Source: Propionibacteriaceae bacterium
GTDB lineage: Bacteria; Actinomycetota; Actinomycetes; Propionibacteriales; Propionibacteriaceae
Direction of reading: 5' to 3'
Length of the DNA: 63,364 nucleotides
Assembly: GCA_025965155.1 (NCBI GenBank)
Contig: JAOPXN010000117.1
Location: 1-63,364, forward strand
A model generated the notes under the pieces. It was not told where the DNA came from and searched no databases. It was given only the letters and a program-made list of their open reading frames with translations. Position numbers and translations under genes: made by a program. Every line of letters begins with the position of its first letter. The first letter of the stretch is position 1. This document shows, one piece after another, positions 31,113 to 56,306 of the stretch.

Positions 31113-32315
31113 TCAACTGCTGGGCGTGATGAGGTTGCCGGTGCGGTAGACCGCGCGGATGCGGTGGATGGCACCGGGATCGCGGGCTGGGTCTCCCTCA
31201 ATTGCCAAGATGTCGGCGTCGTACCCGACGGCGATCCGTCCCTTGCGGTGTGCCAGACCGCAAATCTTGGCGGCAACGGAGGTGATCGTCATCAACACGT
31301 CGGCAGCAGTCATTCCGAGGTTCACTAGCCGTGGCACGGCATATCGGAGGGCGTCGTGTGGCTTGAGTGGGGAGATTCCCGCATCGGTACCCGCGACCAC
31401 CCGCACGCCGGCCTGCTGCATACGACGGGTGTTGGCGATCACGAAAGGCATCCGCTTCAAGACGGCTGCCGGCGGTGTCACCCCGGCAATGGGTACGAGC
31501 CCCACGGTCGCGCCGACGACAATACCCTTCCGAGCGATTGCCTCGATCATGTCCCCTGGCTCATCGATTCCGTCCTCTGACCAGAAGGTGGCGTGTTCCA
31601 GACCGTCAACGCCAGCCTCGACCGCGTTACGGATGCCCTGAGCGGCATGGGCGTGCGCTGTGACCGGGAGCCCGACCCGATGCGCTTCGTCAACTGCTGC
31701 TCGTAGCTCCTCAACTGTGAACTGCGGCAGCTCCTGCCGGGTCCCGGGCGTCAGCTGTCCACCGCTGGCCATGATCTTGATGATGTCCACACCGCGCTCG
31801 GCGTGCTGTCGGACTGCAGCCTGAATCCCGTCAGCGCCTGGTTCAGCCACACCACCTCAGAAGTGACAGTGTCCGCCGGGGGTGGTGATCGGTGGCCCGG
31901 CAGCGACCACGGTCGGCATCGCCGCCGTGTCGCGCAGGTCCAGGGAGAGGTAGCCACGGTCACCCAGGTCACGAACTGTCGTGACCCCACCCAGGAGCGC
32001 CGTTCGCCCAGCCCGACGCATCGCCTCCAGCGCAGCCTGATCATTTCGCCGGGCCAAAGCTCCGACCGGGTCCGTACTCGCATCGAAGGCGAGATGCACG
32101 TGCGTGTCAATCAGGCCCGGCATTAGTGTTGTGCCGCCCAGATCCACCACGTGGGCATCGTCGGGAGCGGCGACGCCAAGGCCGACTGACATGATGGTCG
32201 AACCTTCGATCACGACAACGGGGTCAGGCCGCAGGGTGGCTTGCGTGCCGTCGAACAGCCATGCCGCACAGAGCGCAGTCGGACGGGCCCGCTCAGTCAC
32301 CGATATCGACGCCAC
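31113..32315 (-). pseudogene. Amidohydrolase with an in-frame UGA
   Basis: A metal-dependent amidohydrolase of the imidazolonepropionase-like group, otherwise complete. The N-terminal part has the HxH metal motif (LIDTHVHLAFD). The C-terminal part has the carboxy-Lys region (VDIIKIMASGG), the His pair (TAHAHAAQG) and the metal Asp (VAGTDAGISP). The two halves are in the same frame, separated only by a TGA at 31857-31859 directly after TPGGHCHF. A TGG-to-TGA change could explain it. A new GTG start at 31848-31850 could express the distal half. It is probably inactive unless read through. GTG start at 32315. Confidence 0.7.
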
Positions 32316-32943: not shown

Positions 32944-32983
32944 ATGTGGGTGAGGATGCTCGGGGGTTCACCCCCACCCACAT
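32944..32983 (-). repeat. Stem-loop element, copy C (loop AACCCCCGAG)
   Basis: On the minus strand a 9-bp outer stem (ATGTGGGTG with CACCCACAT) continues into a 6-bp inner stem (GGGGTG with CATCCT) and the loop AACCCCCGAG. Loop and inner-stem pattern match copies A and B at 55809-55888. The outer stem is a different sequence that still pairs. The G-U pairs work only on this strand, suggesting an RNA. Confidence 0.55.
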
Positions 32984-33156
32984 GTGACTAACGTAGCGGG
33001 CGCTGGGTGCTTCTGGAAGGTCTACCCGTGTCAGATAGATGACATGTCCGCTTTAGGACAGAACTCTTCCCTCTCCCGACGTCGGCCCCGTAGTCTCGTA
33101 TCTGCCGACGCACTTAAGGGGGCGGAAGGCCGGACGATCGGGGGATCACGGCCTTT

Positions 33157-33585
33157 GTGGAGCAGTGGGGATCTCGGGCGGGGGACGTTCGAGATCTTCC
33201 CACAGCTACCGTCACGCAGACTTCGGCGTCACCAGCACTTAACTTCACCGGGCGCCAGTCCACGCGACACCGGCGGCATCTCCATTCGGGATCACACCAG
33301 GCAGAGGTCCAGATCACTGCTGCCGACGATGCGGTGACGATCACGACTTCTGACCACGGGGGCGAGACGCCGCCCTGGCATCCCGGGGTAAGTCTGTCGT
33401 TGATGCGAGAGCGGTCCGAGCAGGTCGGTGGCACCTTCGCTGCGCTGCCCCAGATGCGGGCGGCCGCTTCCACTCCGGCTGTGGGCCTCTCGACGGGTGG
33501 CGGAGGTGAGCGTAAGCCCTCAGCCGATACCGGCGACAGCGTCCAGGGTGTTGTCAATGTGGTCCAACCGCAATGGCTGACTTAG
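33157..33585 (+). pseudogene. Remnant of a sensor histidine kinase ATPase domain
   Basis: The frame contains AEVQITAADDAVTI and, later, PPWHPGVSLSLMRERSEQVGG, which match the C-terminal HATPase part of NarL-type sensor kinases (G-L-x-x-MRERAEEVGG). The N-box region before it is degenerate (NFTGRQSTRHRRHLHS) and no dimerisation, PAS or membrane part is present upstream. It overlaps the antiparallel phosphotransferase gene at its end. I read it as a decayed fragment. Confidence 0.4.
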
Positions 33586-34473
33586 GAGCATGTTCGCCCG
33601 CTCAATGCTGTGCGCCCGTAGATCCGCGGAGGCGTTCGGACTCAGGTACGCAGCGACGGCTGACTCCCAGAAGTGACCGAACTGGGCAATGACCATGGTG
33701 AAGGCGCCCCGTCCCCGCAGCCGCGCGGGCCCCCCTGAGTCGACGTAGGAACCGAGCAGATCCCGCATCCGTACGACGTCTTCGCCGGCAAAGTCGAACA
33801 ACACCATCGGCAGCTCCTGGGCAGGGTCCTCCAGCCCGCAGTTGTCCCAGTCGATGACGCAGACGCCGCCAGCGGGCATCGGCAAGATGTTGTCCGCCCA
33901 CAGGTCACGATGGCAGTTCTGCAGCCGCTCGGGCGGTTCCATCAGCGCTGCAAGCTTGATCAACGTCGGAATCTCGTCGGCAAGAGCGGCGGCGAACGGC
34001 GCTCCGGCGGCGACAGCATCGCTGTGCAACTGACTCCAGCGTTGAGCATGCACCGGTTCGGTGTACCACGGGTGCAGGGGACGCGCCGGTTCGTGGTTCA
34101 CCCGATGCACGGCGGCCACGGTCGCACCGATCAGCACCGGGTCAGCGGCCTGGTTCATCGGCAGGAGATCAACCCACTCGTAGGCGCGCACCTGGTGTGG
34201 CCCGATCTCGGCGAGCGTCCGGCCGGACAGCGCTCGTAACGGACGCGGAACCGGCACAGTGCCCGCCAGGAACACCGCCTCCTGGAAGTCGGCAGCAGCG
34301 GAGGCATCCGGCTCGTTCTCGCGCCGGAAGGTCTCCTTGATCGCGAACACACCATGAGTGGTCTTCAGCCGCCACACCTGACCCTGCTCACCGGTGCCTG
34401 CCAGCCGGAGATCAACAACCCTCGACCCGAGGCCGAAAGCCCGCAGCACCTGGTCCGTGTGATCCGCTAGCAC
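33520..34473 (-). CDS. Phosphotransferase, APH family
   Basis: 317 aa, aminoglycoside-phosphotransferase-like kinase. The ATP-side Lys is in VFAIKETFRR. The catalytic loop is intact (NCHRDLWADNIL: HRDxxxxN) and is followed by VCVIDWDNCGLEDP, the metal Asp motif. Compared with the APH-fold gene at 1400, this one keeps the canonical residues. The substrate is unknown and resistance is not implied. Most of the neighbouring sequence on both sides is gene remnants. Confidence 0.82.
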   Translation of the reverse strand: MLADHTDQVLRAFGLGSRVVDLRLAGTGEQGQVWRLKTTHGVFAIKETFRRENEPDASAAADFQEAVFLAGTVPVPRPLRALSGRTLAEIGPHQVRAYEWVDLLPMNQAADPVLIGATVAAVHRVNHEPARPLHPWYTEPVHAQRWSQLHSDAVAAGAPFAAALADEIPTLIKLAALMEPPERLQNCHRDLWADNILPMPAGGVCVIDWDNCGLEDPAQELPMVLFDFAGEDVVRMRDLLGSYVDSGGPARLRGRGAFTMVIAQFGHFWESAVAAYLSPNASADLRAHSIERANMLLSQPLRLDHIDNTLDAVAGIG

Positions 34474-42059: not shown

Positions 42060-42144
42060 GCCGGAGTGGTGGAATTGGTAGACACGCAGGATTTAGGTTC
42101 CTGTGCCTTCGGGTGTAAGGGTTCGAGTCCCTTCTTCGGCACCA
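42060..42144 (+). tRNA. tRNA-Leu (anticodon UAG)
   Basis: The acceptor stem GCCGGAG pairs with CTTCGGC, followed by discriminator A and an encoded CCA (to 42144). The anticodon stem CAGGA/TCCTG holds the loop TTTAGGT, giving UAG (reads CUA/CUG). The T-arm GGGTTCGAGTCCC is intact, and a long variable arm (TGCCTTCGGGTGT) fits a class II Leu tRNA. Confidence 0.95.
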
Positions 42145-54285: not shown

Positions 54286-55491
54286 TCAGCCGCCTGACTG
54301 CTTGCGCCTCAGCGCTTCGTCCCAGCTATAGGCATAGCTGCCGTCGTCGCAGGCAAGACCGCCTTCGCCGATTTCCAGCGGTCGGAACGTATCGACCATC
54401 ACGGCCAGCTCGTCGAAGTACTCACGCCCAAGGGACGCCTCCGCGGCGCCCGGCTGCGGACCGTGCGAGTGTCCACCCGGGTGCAGTGTGACGGACCCCA
54501 GCTCGATGCCGGATCCCTTGCGCGCCTCGTAGTCCCCGCCGCAGTAGAACATCACCTCGTCGGAGTCCACATTCGAGTGGTAGTACGGAACCGGCACGGC
54601 GAGCGGGTGATAGTCGACCTTGCGCGGAACGAAGTTGCAGACGACGAAGTTGGTCCCCTCGAACACCTGGTGGGCCGGCGGCGGCTGGTGCACCCGGCCG
54701 GTGATCGGCTCGAAGTCGCCCACGTTGAACCGGTACGGATACAGGCAGCCATCCCAACCGACCACATCGAACGGTGAGCTCGTCGCCGTTACCACCGTGC
54801 CTACAATCCCGCTGTGCCCCCGGTGCTTGGTGTAGATCTCCAGATCGACGCCGTCCTCGAGCAGCGGCTCGGTCGGACCGTGCAGGTCTCGTTCGCAGTA
54901 CGGGCTGTGCTCAAGCAGCTGGCCGAAGCGGGACAGGTAACGCTTAGCAGGGGTGATGTGGGAGTTGGCTTCGATGGCGTACGCCGCCACGCGGCCGTCC
55001 GGTATCCACCGATGCACGGTTGCTCGGGGAATGATCAGATAGTCACGGTCGACGAAGTCGATGACGCCGAACACCGTCTCGAGCCGACCGTGCCCTGACT
55101 CCACGTACACGCACTCGTCGCCTACCGCGTTGCGGTACAGCGAGGAGGGCCGGGACCCGACTGCATAGCTGATCCGCACGTCGGCATTTCCTAGCACCAG
55201 CCGGCGACCGGTGACGAGGTCGATATCGCCGGGGTCCGTCCCCTTGAACAGGTCGGGCAGCCTCAGGTGCAGCGGGCGAAGCGGACGGTTCTGCGTGGTG
55301 GTCTGGTCGAGCAGCTCCCAGACACGGGCGGCAGACATGGCCGAAGGAATTCCGCGGTGGTAGAGCAGTGCCGAGTCAGAGAAGAACCCCTCCTCGCCCA
55401 TCAGCTCCTCCGCGTAGAGGGTGCCGTCCGGCTGCCTGAACTGGGTGTGACGCTTTGGTGGAATCTGTCCGACCCTGCGGTAGAAGGCCAT
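54286..55491 (-). CDS. hmgA: Homogentisate 1,2-dioxygenase
   Basis: 401 aa, ring cleavage of homogentisate to maleylacetoacetate (tyrosine catabolism). Fe(II) ligand region and landmarks: PPAHQVFEGTNFVVCNFVPRK, YYHSNVDSDEVMFYCGG and LHPGGHSHGPQPG. The N-terminus (MAFYRRVGQIPPKRHTQF) is typical. Other steps (hppD, fahA) lie 2-5 kb away but not in the same operon. Confidence 0.93.
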   Translation of the reverse strand: MAFYRRVGQIPPKRHTQFRQPDGTLYAEELMGEEGFFSDSALLYHRGIPSAMSAARVWELLDQTTTQNRPLRPLHLRLPDLFKGTDPGDIDLVTGRRLVLGNADVRISYAVGSRPSSLYRNAVGDECVYVESGHGRLETVFGVIDFVDRDYLIIPRATVHRWIPDGRVAAYAIEANSHITPAKRYLSRFGQLLEHSPYCERDLHGPTEPLLEDGVDLEIYTKHRGHSGIVGTVVTATSSPFDVVGWDGCLYPYRFNVGDFEPITGRVHQPPPAHQVFEGTNFVVCNFVPRKVDYHPLAVPVPYYHSNVDSDEVMFYCGGDYEARKGSGIELGSVTLHPGGHSHGPQPGAAEASLGREYFDELAVMVDTFRPLEIGEGGLACDDGSYAYSWDEALRRKQSGG

Positions 55492-55752: not shown

Positions 55753-55808
55753 CAACAGGACGCAGACTTTCCTTCCCAGAACGGCCTGCCCTCTATACAG
55801 TGGCCCTG

Positions 55809-55888
55809 CGCGCCACCGGGCTGAACCCCCGAGCAGCCTTGGCGCGTGGTGATGCCGGCGGGGGAGAACCCCCGAGCTTCCTCGCCGG
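55809..55888 (+). repeat. Tandem stem-loop elements, copies A and B (loop AACCCCCGAG)
   Basis: Copy A (55809-55846): outer stem CGCGCCA/TGGCGCG, inner stem GGGCTG/CAGCCT. Copy B (55855-55888): outer stem CCGGCG/CGCCGG, inner stem GGGGAG/CTTCCT. Both carry the same 10-nt loop and are separated by 8 nt. Inner-stem positions covary with copy C at 32944. The G-U wobble in copy B forms only on the plus strand. They are antisense to the YjbR-hmgA direction. Confidence 0.6.
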
Positions 55889-55892
55889 TACC

Positions 55893-56306
55893 TCACCGAG
55901 TTGCTGACCGAGCCGTTTCAGGGCCGCCAGAGTCCAGCCGACGGACCAGGGTCACCGGGGCAACGCAGCGGTAGGCCTCCTCCACGATCGCGTCCAGCTC
56001 GGCCTGGTCGGACCCGAGGAGCAGCACTCCGAGCCAGCCCCGGTGACCGACGTAGGGCGGTAGAAAGAAGCGATCCGGCTCCGCCTCGATCACGTCGGCC
56101 TGAACGCCGACGGGTGCAGCACACCAGATGGCCAGCCGCCCGTCCCCGTGATGGTCGTCCAGGAACATCACGAAGCACTTCTTGGCGCGGACGAACCAGG
56201 CGGGACCGCCATGGCTTGGCCGCTCCGATACCTCGGGCAGGCCGGCCACCGCTGAGCGCAGCATGGCCAGGGTGTCCTCCACCTGTCTCGCTGTGTACCC
56301 GGCCAT
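55893..56306 (-). CDS. MmcQ/YjbR-family protein
   Basis: 137 aa. CyaY-like alpha/beta fold with the family landmarks SERPSHGGPAWFVRAKKCFVMF, then PPYVGHRGWLGVLL. Often annotated as DNA-binding without clear proof. It ends five bases after the stem-loop pair on the opposite strand. Confidence 0.82.
   Translation of the reverse strand: MAGYTARQVEDTLAMLRSAVAGLPEVSERPSHGGPAWFVRAKKCFVMFLDDHHGDGRLAIWCAAPVGVQADVIEAEPDRFFLPPYVGHRGWLGVLLLGSDQAELDAIVEEAYRCVAPVTLVRRLDSGGPETARSATR

Follow-up and report, generated by a model that had tools for sequence, protein, structure and literature searches.

The closest described counterpart of the element analysed here is F6 (SfdS, ncRv10243; RF01791) of mycobacteria. 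According to PMC8557902, this RNA is SigF-dependent and induced by starvation in M. tuberculosis, and its transcript of 102 nucleotides (nt) is processed at the 3' end to 58 nt; that paper, of 2021, gives no direct target for it. C-rich loops on stable stems also characterize 6C/B11 (RF01066), where they pair with G tracts at ribosome-binding sites, according to an excerpt of PMC10470900. Here, we describe three hairpins, copies A, B, and C, that share the 10-nt loop AACCCCCGAG in a stretch of 63,364 bases (the window), a single contig (JAOPXN010000117.1) of the 4.49 Mb genome of a Propionibacteriaceae bacterium. An earlier note on this DNA had located the three copies and proposed selection on an RNA or single-strand DNA hairpin. 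We conclude, with a probability of about 0.72, that A plus B and C are genes for hairpin-only small regulatory RNAs, in which the C-rich loop would be the active part and the stem a scaffold. Judged against the results below, the earlier note was right about the kind of element and too modest about its reach.

Hairpins with a constant loop and changing stems

Copy A (55806..55849, loop at 55824-55833) and copy B (55848..55892, loop at 55867-55876) are the first and second hairpin of a tandem pair on the plus strand, and copy C (32944..32983, loop at 32959-32968) is a lone hairpin on the minus strand; the positions and the shared loop given by the earlier note were recovered from the window sequence, and the folds were confirmed. 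On the strand that carries the loop as AACCCCCGAG, each copy folds into a single long stem, with minimum free energies of -26.9 (A), -27.0 (B), and -25.8 (C) and z-scores of -3.2, -3.0, and -3.9, respectively. Folding of the opposite strand gave z-scores of -1.4, -1.9, and -2.65, and there B and C adopted a different, two-hairpin fold. The outer stems had been called fully complementary, which does not hold for A, since its stem contains a 2-nt bulge in the fold. Our covariance model R1 scored copy B with 54.9 bits and copy C with 57.3 bits, both being part of its training set. In B (55848-55892) and C (32944-32983), an alternative hairpin is conceivable, in which the C run of the loop is paired with the G run in the 5' arm (GGGGG-AGAA/UGAA-CCCCC); such a hairpin seems to be impossible in the CCTG-closed copies.

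The exact loop occurs three times in the window, in each case as the loop of A, B, or C. With one mismatch allowed, four occurrences were found against 6.5 expected, which is not outstanding within the window alone. In the whole genome, the pattern GGGNNGAACCCCCGAGCNNCC was found at the sites of A, B, and C only (three occurrences, none for the reversed pattern), and the bare 10-mer occurred 17 times, again with no occurrence of its reversal; nine of these 17 places are family hairpins. Taken together, the window, GGGNNGAACCCCCGAGCNNCC, and 10-mer counts led us to reject a chance origin. A looser pattern was present at 31 places in 20 of 96 genomes, compared to four places for its reversal. 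A scan of named genomes returned 33 stretches, among which the long hairpin was seen by eye only in L056 and L059 (identical to places L018 and L017); the remaining stretches and five viral contigs look like chance.

The three copies of the earlier note are all real, but they are not the last. At least ten hairpins are present in the genome of the window: R1 matches nine, and copy A, overlapping with B, is the tenth. Three of them are in the window and the others are distributed over the contigs C38, C54 (two), C74, C81, C84, and C115. All 20 genomes of the genus have R1 matches at E ≤0.001, 1-14 in each and some in tandem like A/B, and one genome of the genus reaches 15 matches at E ≤0.1.

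These relatives allowed us to ask whether the stems change while pairing is kept, as the earlier note had read from three copies. The hairpins in the alignments were chosen by folding or by a model, which favours pairing. For the first alignment, nine of the 31 pattern places (L004-L009 and L022-L024) were left out, as they do not fold as the hairpin, and one extra hairpin of L019 was added, resulting in 23 rows (22 distinct) with A, B, and C included. In this set 90.6% of the cells are paired, a value that is biased because the rows were picked for folding, more so than the results that follow. The set contains 95 two-sided changes, whereas shuffled alignments gave 26.7 ± 4.5 and slid controls 12-33. 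In the second alignment, which comprises 104 R1 matches (91 distinct) aligned to the model, 575 two-sided stem cells were counted against 190.8 ± 13.6 in shuffles and 97-187 in slid controls. The third set consists of 30 hairpins taken as linked to dapA or rnj without individual checking and is the basis of a second model, R2; it has 114 two-sided cells (36.5 ± 4.9 in shuffles, 8-21 in slid controls). Two-sided changes are above shuffles in all three alignments. Selection on an RNA hairpin, as proposed earlier, is further backed by the strand-biased folding and by the promoter-like boxes at nearly fixed distance and the conserved gene neighbourhood described below.

The loop, in contrast to the stem, hardly varies. 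It is identical in 76 of 82 distinct hairpins, a count to be read with the preference of R1 for AACCCCCGAG in mind, and it is the whole loop together with the closing G-C pair that is nearly constant, not the C run alone. This count excludes L218 and L219, whose loop is one base longer, and L157, L159, L128, and L158 (R1 E values of 0.00015-0.0047). The latter four are likewise absent from the promoter counts and present in the second alignment; L159, L128, and L158 form hairpins whose loops are related but not closed by G-C, and L157 is not such a hairpin. A changing stem combined with a near-constant loop suggests that the stem serves as the scaffold and the loop as the message. G-U wobbles had been said to occur on one strand only. 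This holds as a bias of the family, with 69 G-U against 48 A-C cells in the 82 hairpins, but not as a strict rule; 30 of the 48 A-C cells represent one recurrent mismatch at stem pair 5.

Dispersed, near-identical copies, as present in some genomes, would also be left by a DNA-level element, such as a repetitive extragenic palindromic (REP)-like or transposon-end hairpin spread by a transposase. Against such an element speak the stems that differ with pairing kept, the strand-biased folding, the conserved synteny outside the genus, and identical hairpins whose conserved boxes are separated by unrelated spacers and bordered by unrelated flanks (e.g., L124, L132, and L133). In addition, no transposase was found among the nine window genes scanned, no wider search having been made. 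For the covarying stems, unrelated flanks, strand bias, and synteny, we regard this explanation as hardly credible.

Promoter-like boxes and the dapA-rnj neighbourhood

Upstream sequences were inspected for 115 hairpins, 69 of them closed by CCT/CCC and 46 others; A, B, and C belong to the latter, as do five Streptomyces-like copies. A box GTAAC[GA]-N15/16-CGAT precedes 44 of the 69 CCT/CCC-closed hairpins, compared to 120 of 96,000 random pieces, and in 38 of 40 measured cases its CGAT ends 3-9 nt before the stem. The 25 CCT/CCC-closed hairpins without this box comprise seven second hairpins of tandems, four hairpins of the Streptomyces-like type that have TAGG[CG]T as their box, and 14 to which neither applies. 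Only three of the other 46 hairpins have the GTAAC box; in 37 of the 46, a TANNNT box is located 22-36 nt ahead of the C run (compared to 627 of 63,400 random 14-mers). Furthermore, 15 of the 115 hairpins, for the most part copies adjoining rnj, have a CRP-like site upstream (TGTGA-N6-TCACA, at most one mismatch), compared to nine of 4,800 random pieces. The fraction of T behind the hairpins is 0.40 in the CCT/CCC class and 0.23 in the others, against 0.16. The GTAAC...CGAT box resembles the sequence CGTAAC-N16-CGTTGA recognized by BldN, as given in an excerpt of PMC2375139, and by this likeness a BldN-like σ factor is a candidate for its recognition.

In the single-copy genomes of the genus that were examined, the hairpin is located just upstream of rnj, encoding RNase J (by Pfam on the copy of the window's genome), and in Streptomyces-like genomes and other families it is found just upstream of dapA-rnj on the same strand. 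Genes were named from Pfam or from dapA and RNase J motifs read in translations. The Streptomyces label refers to one genus (family f20) and was deduced from its RNase J, which matches the 5a0t chain over its full length with 1213 bits; this chain we take to be RNase J of S. coelicolor. Structures of the S. coelicolor enzyme are described in PMC4652760. R2 matches 77 of 394 genomes of the class, corresponding to 24 of 137 genera (E ≤0.01). In a sample of the phylum, 13 of 296 genomes were matched at E ≤0.001, all 13 belonging to the same class. A dapA motif lies within 330 nt at 26 of 27 Streptomyces-like loci. Twenty hits were retrieved from genomes that belong neither to the window's genus nor to Streptomyces; dapA motifs follow the hairpin in 17 of them, and a GTAAC...GAT box is present in 18. 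L265 and L275 precede another gene, and L272 is probably a false match. In L265 and L275 (family f18) the hairpin and promoter box stand before the non-dapA gene as if the neighbourhood had been rearranged. The gene neighbourhood is thus conserved even though the search models did not use it. Apparently, the founding copy is a gene of its own that lies directly before dapA-rnj, outside the window, and A, B, and C are probably dispersed paralogs of an actinobacterial small RNA (sRNA) founded there, akin to F6 in design and probably by descent.

The position on the same strand directly upstream of dapA or rnj, together with the T-rich sequence behind many hairpins, could also indicate that the hairpin belongs to the dapA-rnj operon as its leader or attenuator, for example in autoregulation of RNase J, and is not an RNA acting in trans. 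Several loci, however, have a -10-like box directly before the start codon of dapA or rnj (judged by eye), so that these genes look leaderless. Moreover, rough gene calls place many copies of the genus next to other genes, and the gene that follows A/B is convergent with them. A leader is therefore quite improbable.

Relation to F6, 6C, and other described RNAs

In the window, a tRNA was the sole Rfam match over threshold, and F6 gave none; the tRNA-Leu gene at 42060-42144 is the only tRNA found there. At the related loci, only c-di-AMP riboswitches exceeded the threshold, and no family reached its gathering score at the hairpins examined, in agreement with the earlier note, which had matched them to no known family. 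When the refuting test named in that note was carried out, additional covarying copies proved plentiful, and the Rfam scores at the hairpins stayed below threshold. The nearest family is F6, whose cut-off is 46 bits; four dapA-type loci scored 27.6-30.7 bits with its model. The F6 model found no match in the window's genome at E ≤0.01 and matched the dapA-linked hairpin of one other genome (G360) with an E value of 0.0077. With this model, scores over the cut-off were obtained in 24 of 296 genomes, 23 of which belong to family f7.

The reverse comparison was more productive. R2, which was built without F6, matches 15 of 20 F6 loci at the position of F6 with E ≤0.1, nine of them below 0.001; among 16 further F6-model loci it matches six at that position (E ≤0.24), two of which are repeats of earlier loci. 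R1 matches two of the 20, weakly. The GTAAC-N-[CA]GAT box is present in 15 of the 20 F6 loci (background 73 of 63,200), and the other five have a GGGTA box, for which no background was computed. The proposed RNAs resemble F6 in their design as one hairpin from the 5' end and have the loop core ACCCCCGA in common with it. The Rfam consensus of F6 is a single hairpin with the loop uGACCCCCGACC, and the F6 loop reads uGACCCCC(C)GACC. On its 3' side F6 has GACCcG where the window family has GAGC. The loci differ as well: F6 is located between fadA2 and fadE5, as stated in part of PMC8557902, whereas the window copies lie by hmgA-like/YjbR and APH/amidohydrolase genes and the copies elsewhere mostly by dapA. 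The promoter-like box shared with F6 occurs in the wider hairpin family, but not at A, B, and C. At none of the 16 further F6-model loci were dapA motifs seen downstream. Eight F6-model hits were retrieved from outside f7 (L301-L303 and L307-L311); among these, the promoter box is found in L303 only and C-run loops in L301, L302, and L311. Some f7 genomes have two F6-like loci each (L305/L306 in G208; L296/L304 in G190).

Common descent of the window hairpins and F6 is likely, judging from these likenesses. They are not filed as F6 because of the sub-threshold score, the different 3' side of the loop, the different locus, and the weak R1 matches; membership by score was rejected at no more than 30.7 of 46 bits. 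A wider proposal would be that one ancient actinobacterial hairpin sRNA, founded at dapA-rnj and driven by a promoter for a BldN-like extracytoplasmic function (ECF) σ factor, unites the copies of Streptomyces, of other families, and of the genus with a relocated F6, the loop acting as one shared seed across the class. We give this proposal even odds.

The likeness to 6C/B11 lies in the C-rich loops on stable stems, and two-hairpin copies (A/B and L104) set two such loops together. RF01066 exceeded its cut-off in none of 57 genomes, including the window genome and 19 others of the genus, with few candidates scored per genome and with the sole control hit also below the cut-off; it gave no match at the hairpin loci. 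Membership in 6C was rejected, as no RF01066 score was over the cut-off. A 6C RNA below the cut-off in a genome of family f3 (L072:1501-1583) has the first loop AAACCCCCGAUU, which is close to AACCCCCGAG; R1 matches it weakly, with 13.7 bits. L104, on contig C54 of the window genome, consists of near-identical units at 2201-2285 and 2436-2522, at a distance of 235 nt. Each unit combines a -10-like box and a C-rich-loop hairpin with a terminator-like hairpin, which likewise has a C loop (CCCCCC), an architecture like that of 6C without a 6C match.

Streptomyces sRNAs of the scr5583 and scr1434 groups were detected and are of a stable stem-loop type with C-rich terminal loops, as described in a portion of PMC3765725. 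Their numbers imply the vicinity of SCO5583 and SCO1434, not of rnj, which is SCO5745 in the excerpt of PMC4681348; they are set apart by these gene numbers and may still be related to the hairpins. The alphaproteobacterial family alpha-r14, or cuckoo (RF02344), also has an identical loop motif on very different stems, according to a section of PMC10746234, but its loop is CCUCCUCCC and it belongs to another phylum. RF02344 gave matches at chance level at the hairpin loci, with at most 21.4 of 58.8 bits. Among the literature matches listed, the titles and beginnings of abstracts do not describe the hairpin family; an unlabelled entry in a supplementary list of Streptomyces sRNAs is possible.

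A candidate RNA regulator and its surroundings

Selection on the hairpin, its strand, the constancy of the loop, the promoter-like boxes, synteny, and copy number are the points that sequence comparison supports. Beyond these points, we infer that A, B, and C are transcribed, where their 5' and 3' ends lie, which regulators and target are involved, and in which direction regulation goes. The transcript would begin at the foot of the first stem or close to it, and the stem would both end the RNA and protect it. By analogy, F6 indicates that an RNA of such design can exist as little more than a 5' hairpin. Under nutrient or stress conditions, an alternative σ factor and, to some extent, CRP would increase the level of the RNA. 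Its near-invariant C-rich loop of 10 nt, as the active part, may then pair with G-rich sites around ribosome-binding sites and lower translation, as the C-rich loops of 6C/B11 do. Pairing over part of the loop is what we consider rather probable.

Several observations weigh against genes for hairpin-only RNAs with a pairing loop. A scan for the σ70 consensus around A/B found neither a promoter nor a terminator, and the GTAAC...CGAT box is absent from the upstream sequence examined before A, B, and C. In the second alignment, the number of pairs with any two-sided change is 16, compared to 14.9 in shuffles, and 52 of 500 shuffles reach 16. An R2 match (E ≤0.01) is lacking in 317 of the 394 class genomes, and no such hairpin was seen in 14 of 18 dapA upstream regions of other families, the four with one being L214, L218, L219, and L221. 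For F6 itself, TargetRNA2 yielded no direct target, according to PMC8557902. Pairing with a G run would not require the A and G bases of the loop to be as constant as they are. Finally, none of the eight exact genome 10-mers outside the family puts the full complement at a ribosome-binding site, as judged by eye with genes unannotated; the nearest full complement lies about 30 nt before a possible ATG. Without full complements at start-codon regions, pairing of the whole loop is unsupported.

A loop that serves as a protein-binding site would accommodate some of these points. In this case the hairpins would titrate or recruit an RNA-binding protein in the manner of a CsrB-like sponge, in line with the near-constancy of the closing G-C pair and of the loop beyond the C run, with the multiple and tandem copies within one genus, and with the missing full-length complements. 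Nearly all matched genomes outside the genus, however, have a single match, which would make a poor sponge. No partner protein has been linked, none having been searched for, and the C-rich loops of B11/6C act by base pairing, according to the excerpt of PMC10470900. We therefore consider a protein site unlikely and prefer a base-pairing regulatory RNA. Relatives with scrambled stems and a near-constant loop would indicate which ten bases to test, and the dapA-linked copies place the RNA in Streptomyces, which is experimentally tractable. If this reading is true, the genus would offer an exceptionally clear example of how an RNA gene family grows, a hairpin-only RNA having reached 14 copies and formed tandem pairs. 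The persistent association with the RNase J operon also prompts the question of whether the RNA and the enzyme act together.

Possible -10 boxes were assigned before A and C. TATACA (55794..55799, plus strand) ends 6 nt before the folded foot of A and has no -35 match; TACGTT (32990..32995, minus strand) would end 6 nt before the folded foot of C. Under a cruder definition of the foot the latter gap is 1 nt, as the automatic stem foot disagrees with the fold for A and C. The pair A/B is flanked by a divergent homogentisate 1,2-dioxygenase-like (hmgA-like) gene (54286..55491, minus strand; Pfam HgmA_N and HgmA_C with modest scores) and by a convergent YjbR-family gene (55893..56282, minus strand; Pfam YjbR), the 3' end of which is directly behind B. 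Copy C sits in a wide gap between an upstream APH-type phosphotransferase gene (33520..34473, minus strand; Pfam APH) and a downstream amidohydrolase gene at 31113-32315, which is split over two frames, with the N-terminal part at 31857..32315 (minus strand) and the remainder at 31113-31850 (both Pfam Amidohydro_1).

G003 (L123 and L016) has two hairpins on either side of a gene that by eye encodes a transporter, upstream of rnj, and a comparable pair about 3.8 kb apart is found in G017 (L129 and L013). The c-di-AMP riboswitches over the Rfam cut-off are located at L012:2001-2160, L014:2006-2166, and L107:1674-1842 (the last one in the window genome), about 255-470 nt downstream of class I hairpins and near genes that by eye are holB- and tmk-like.
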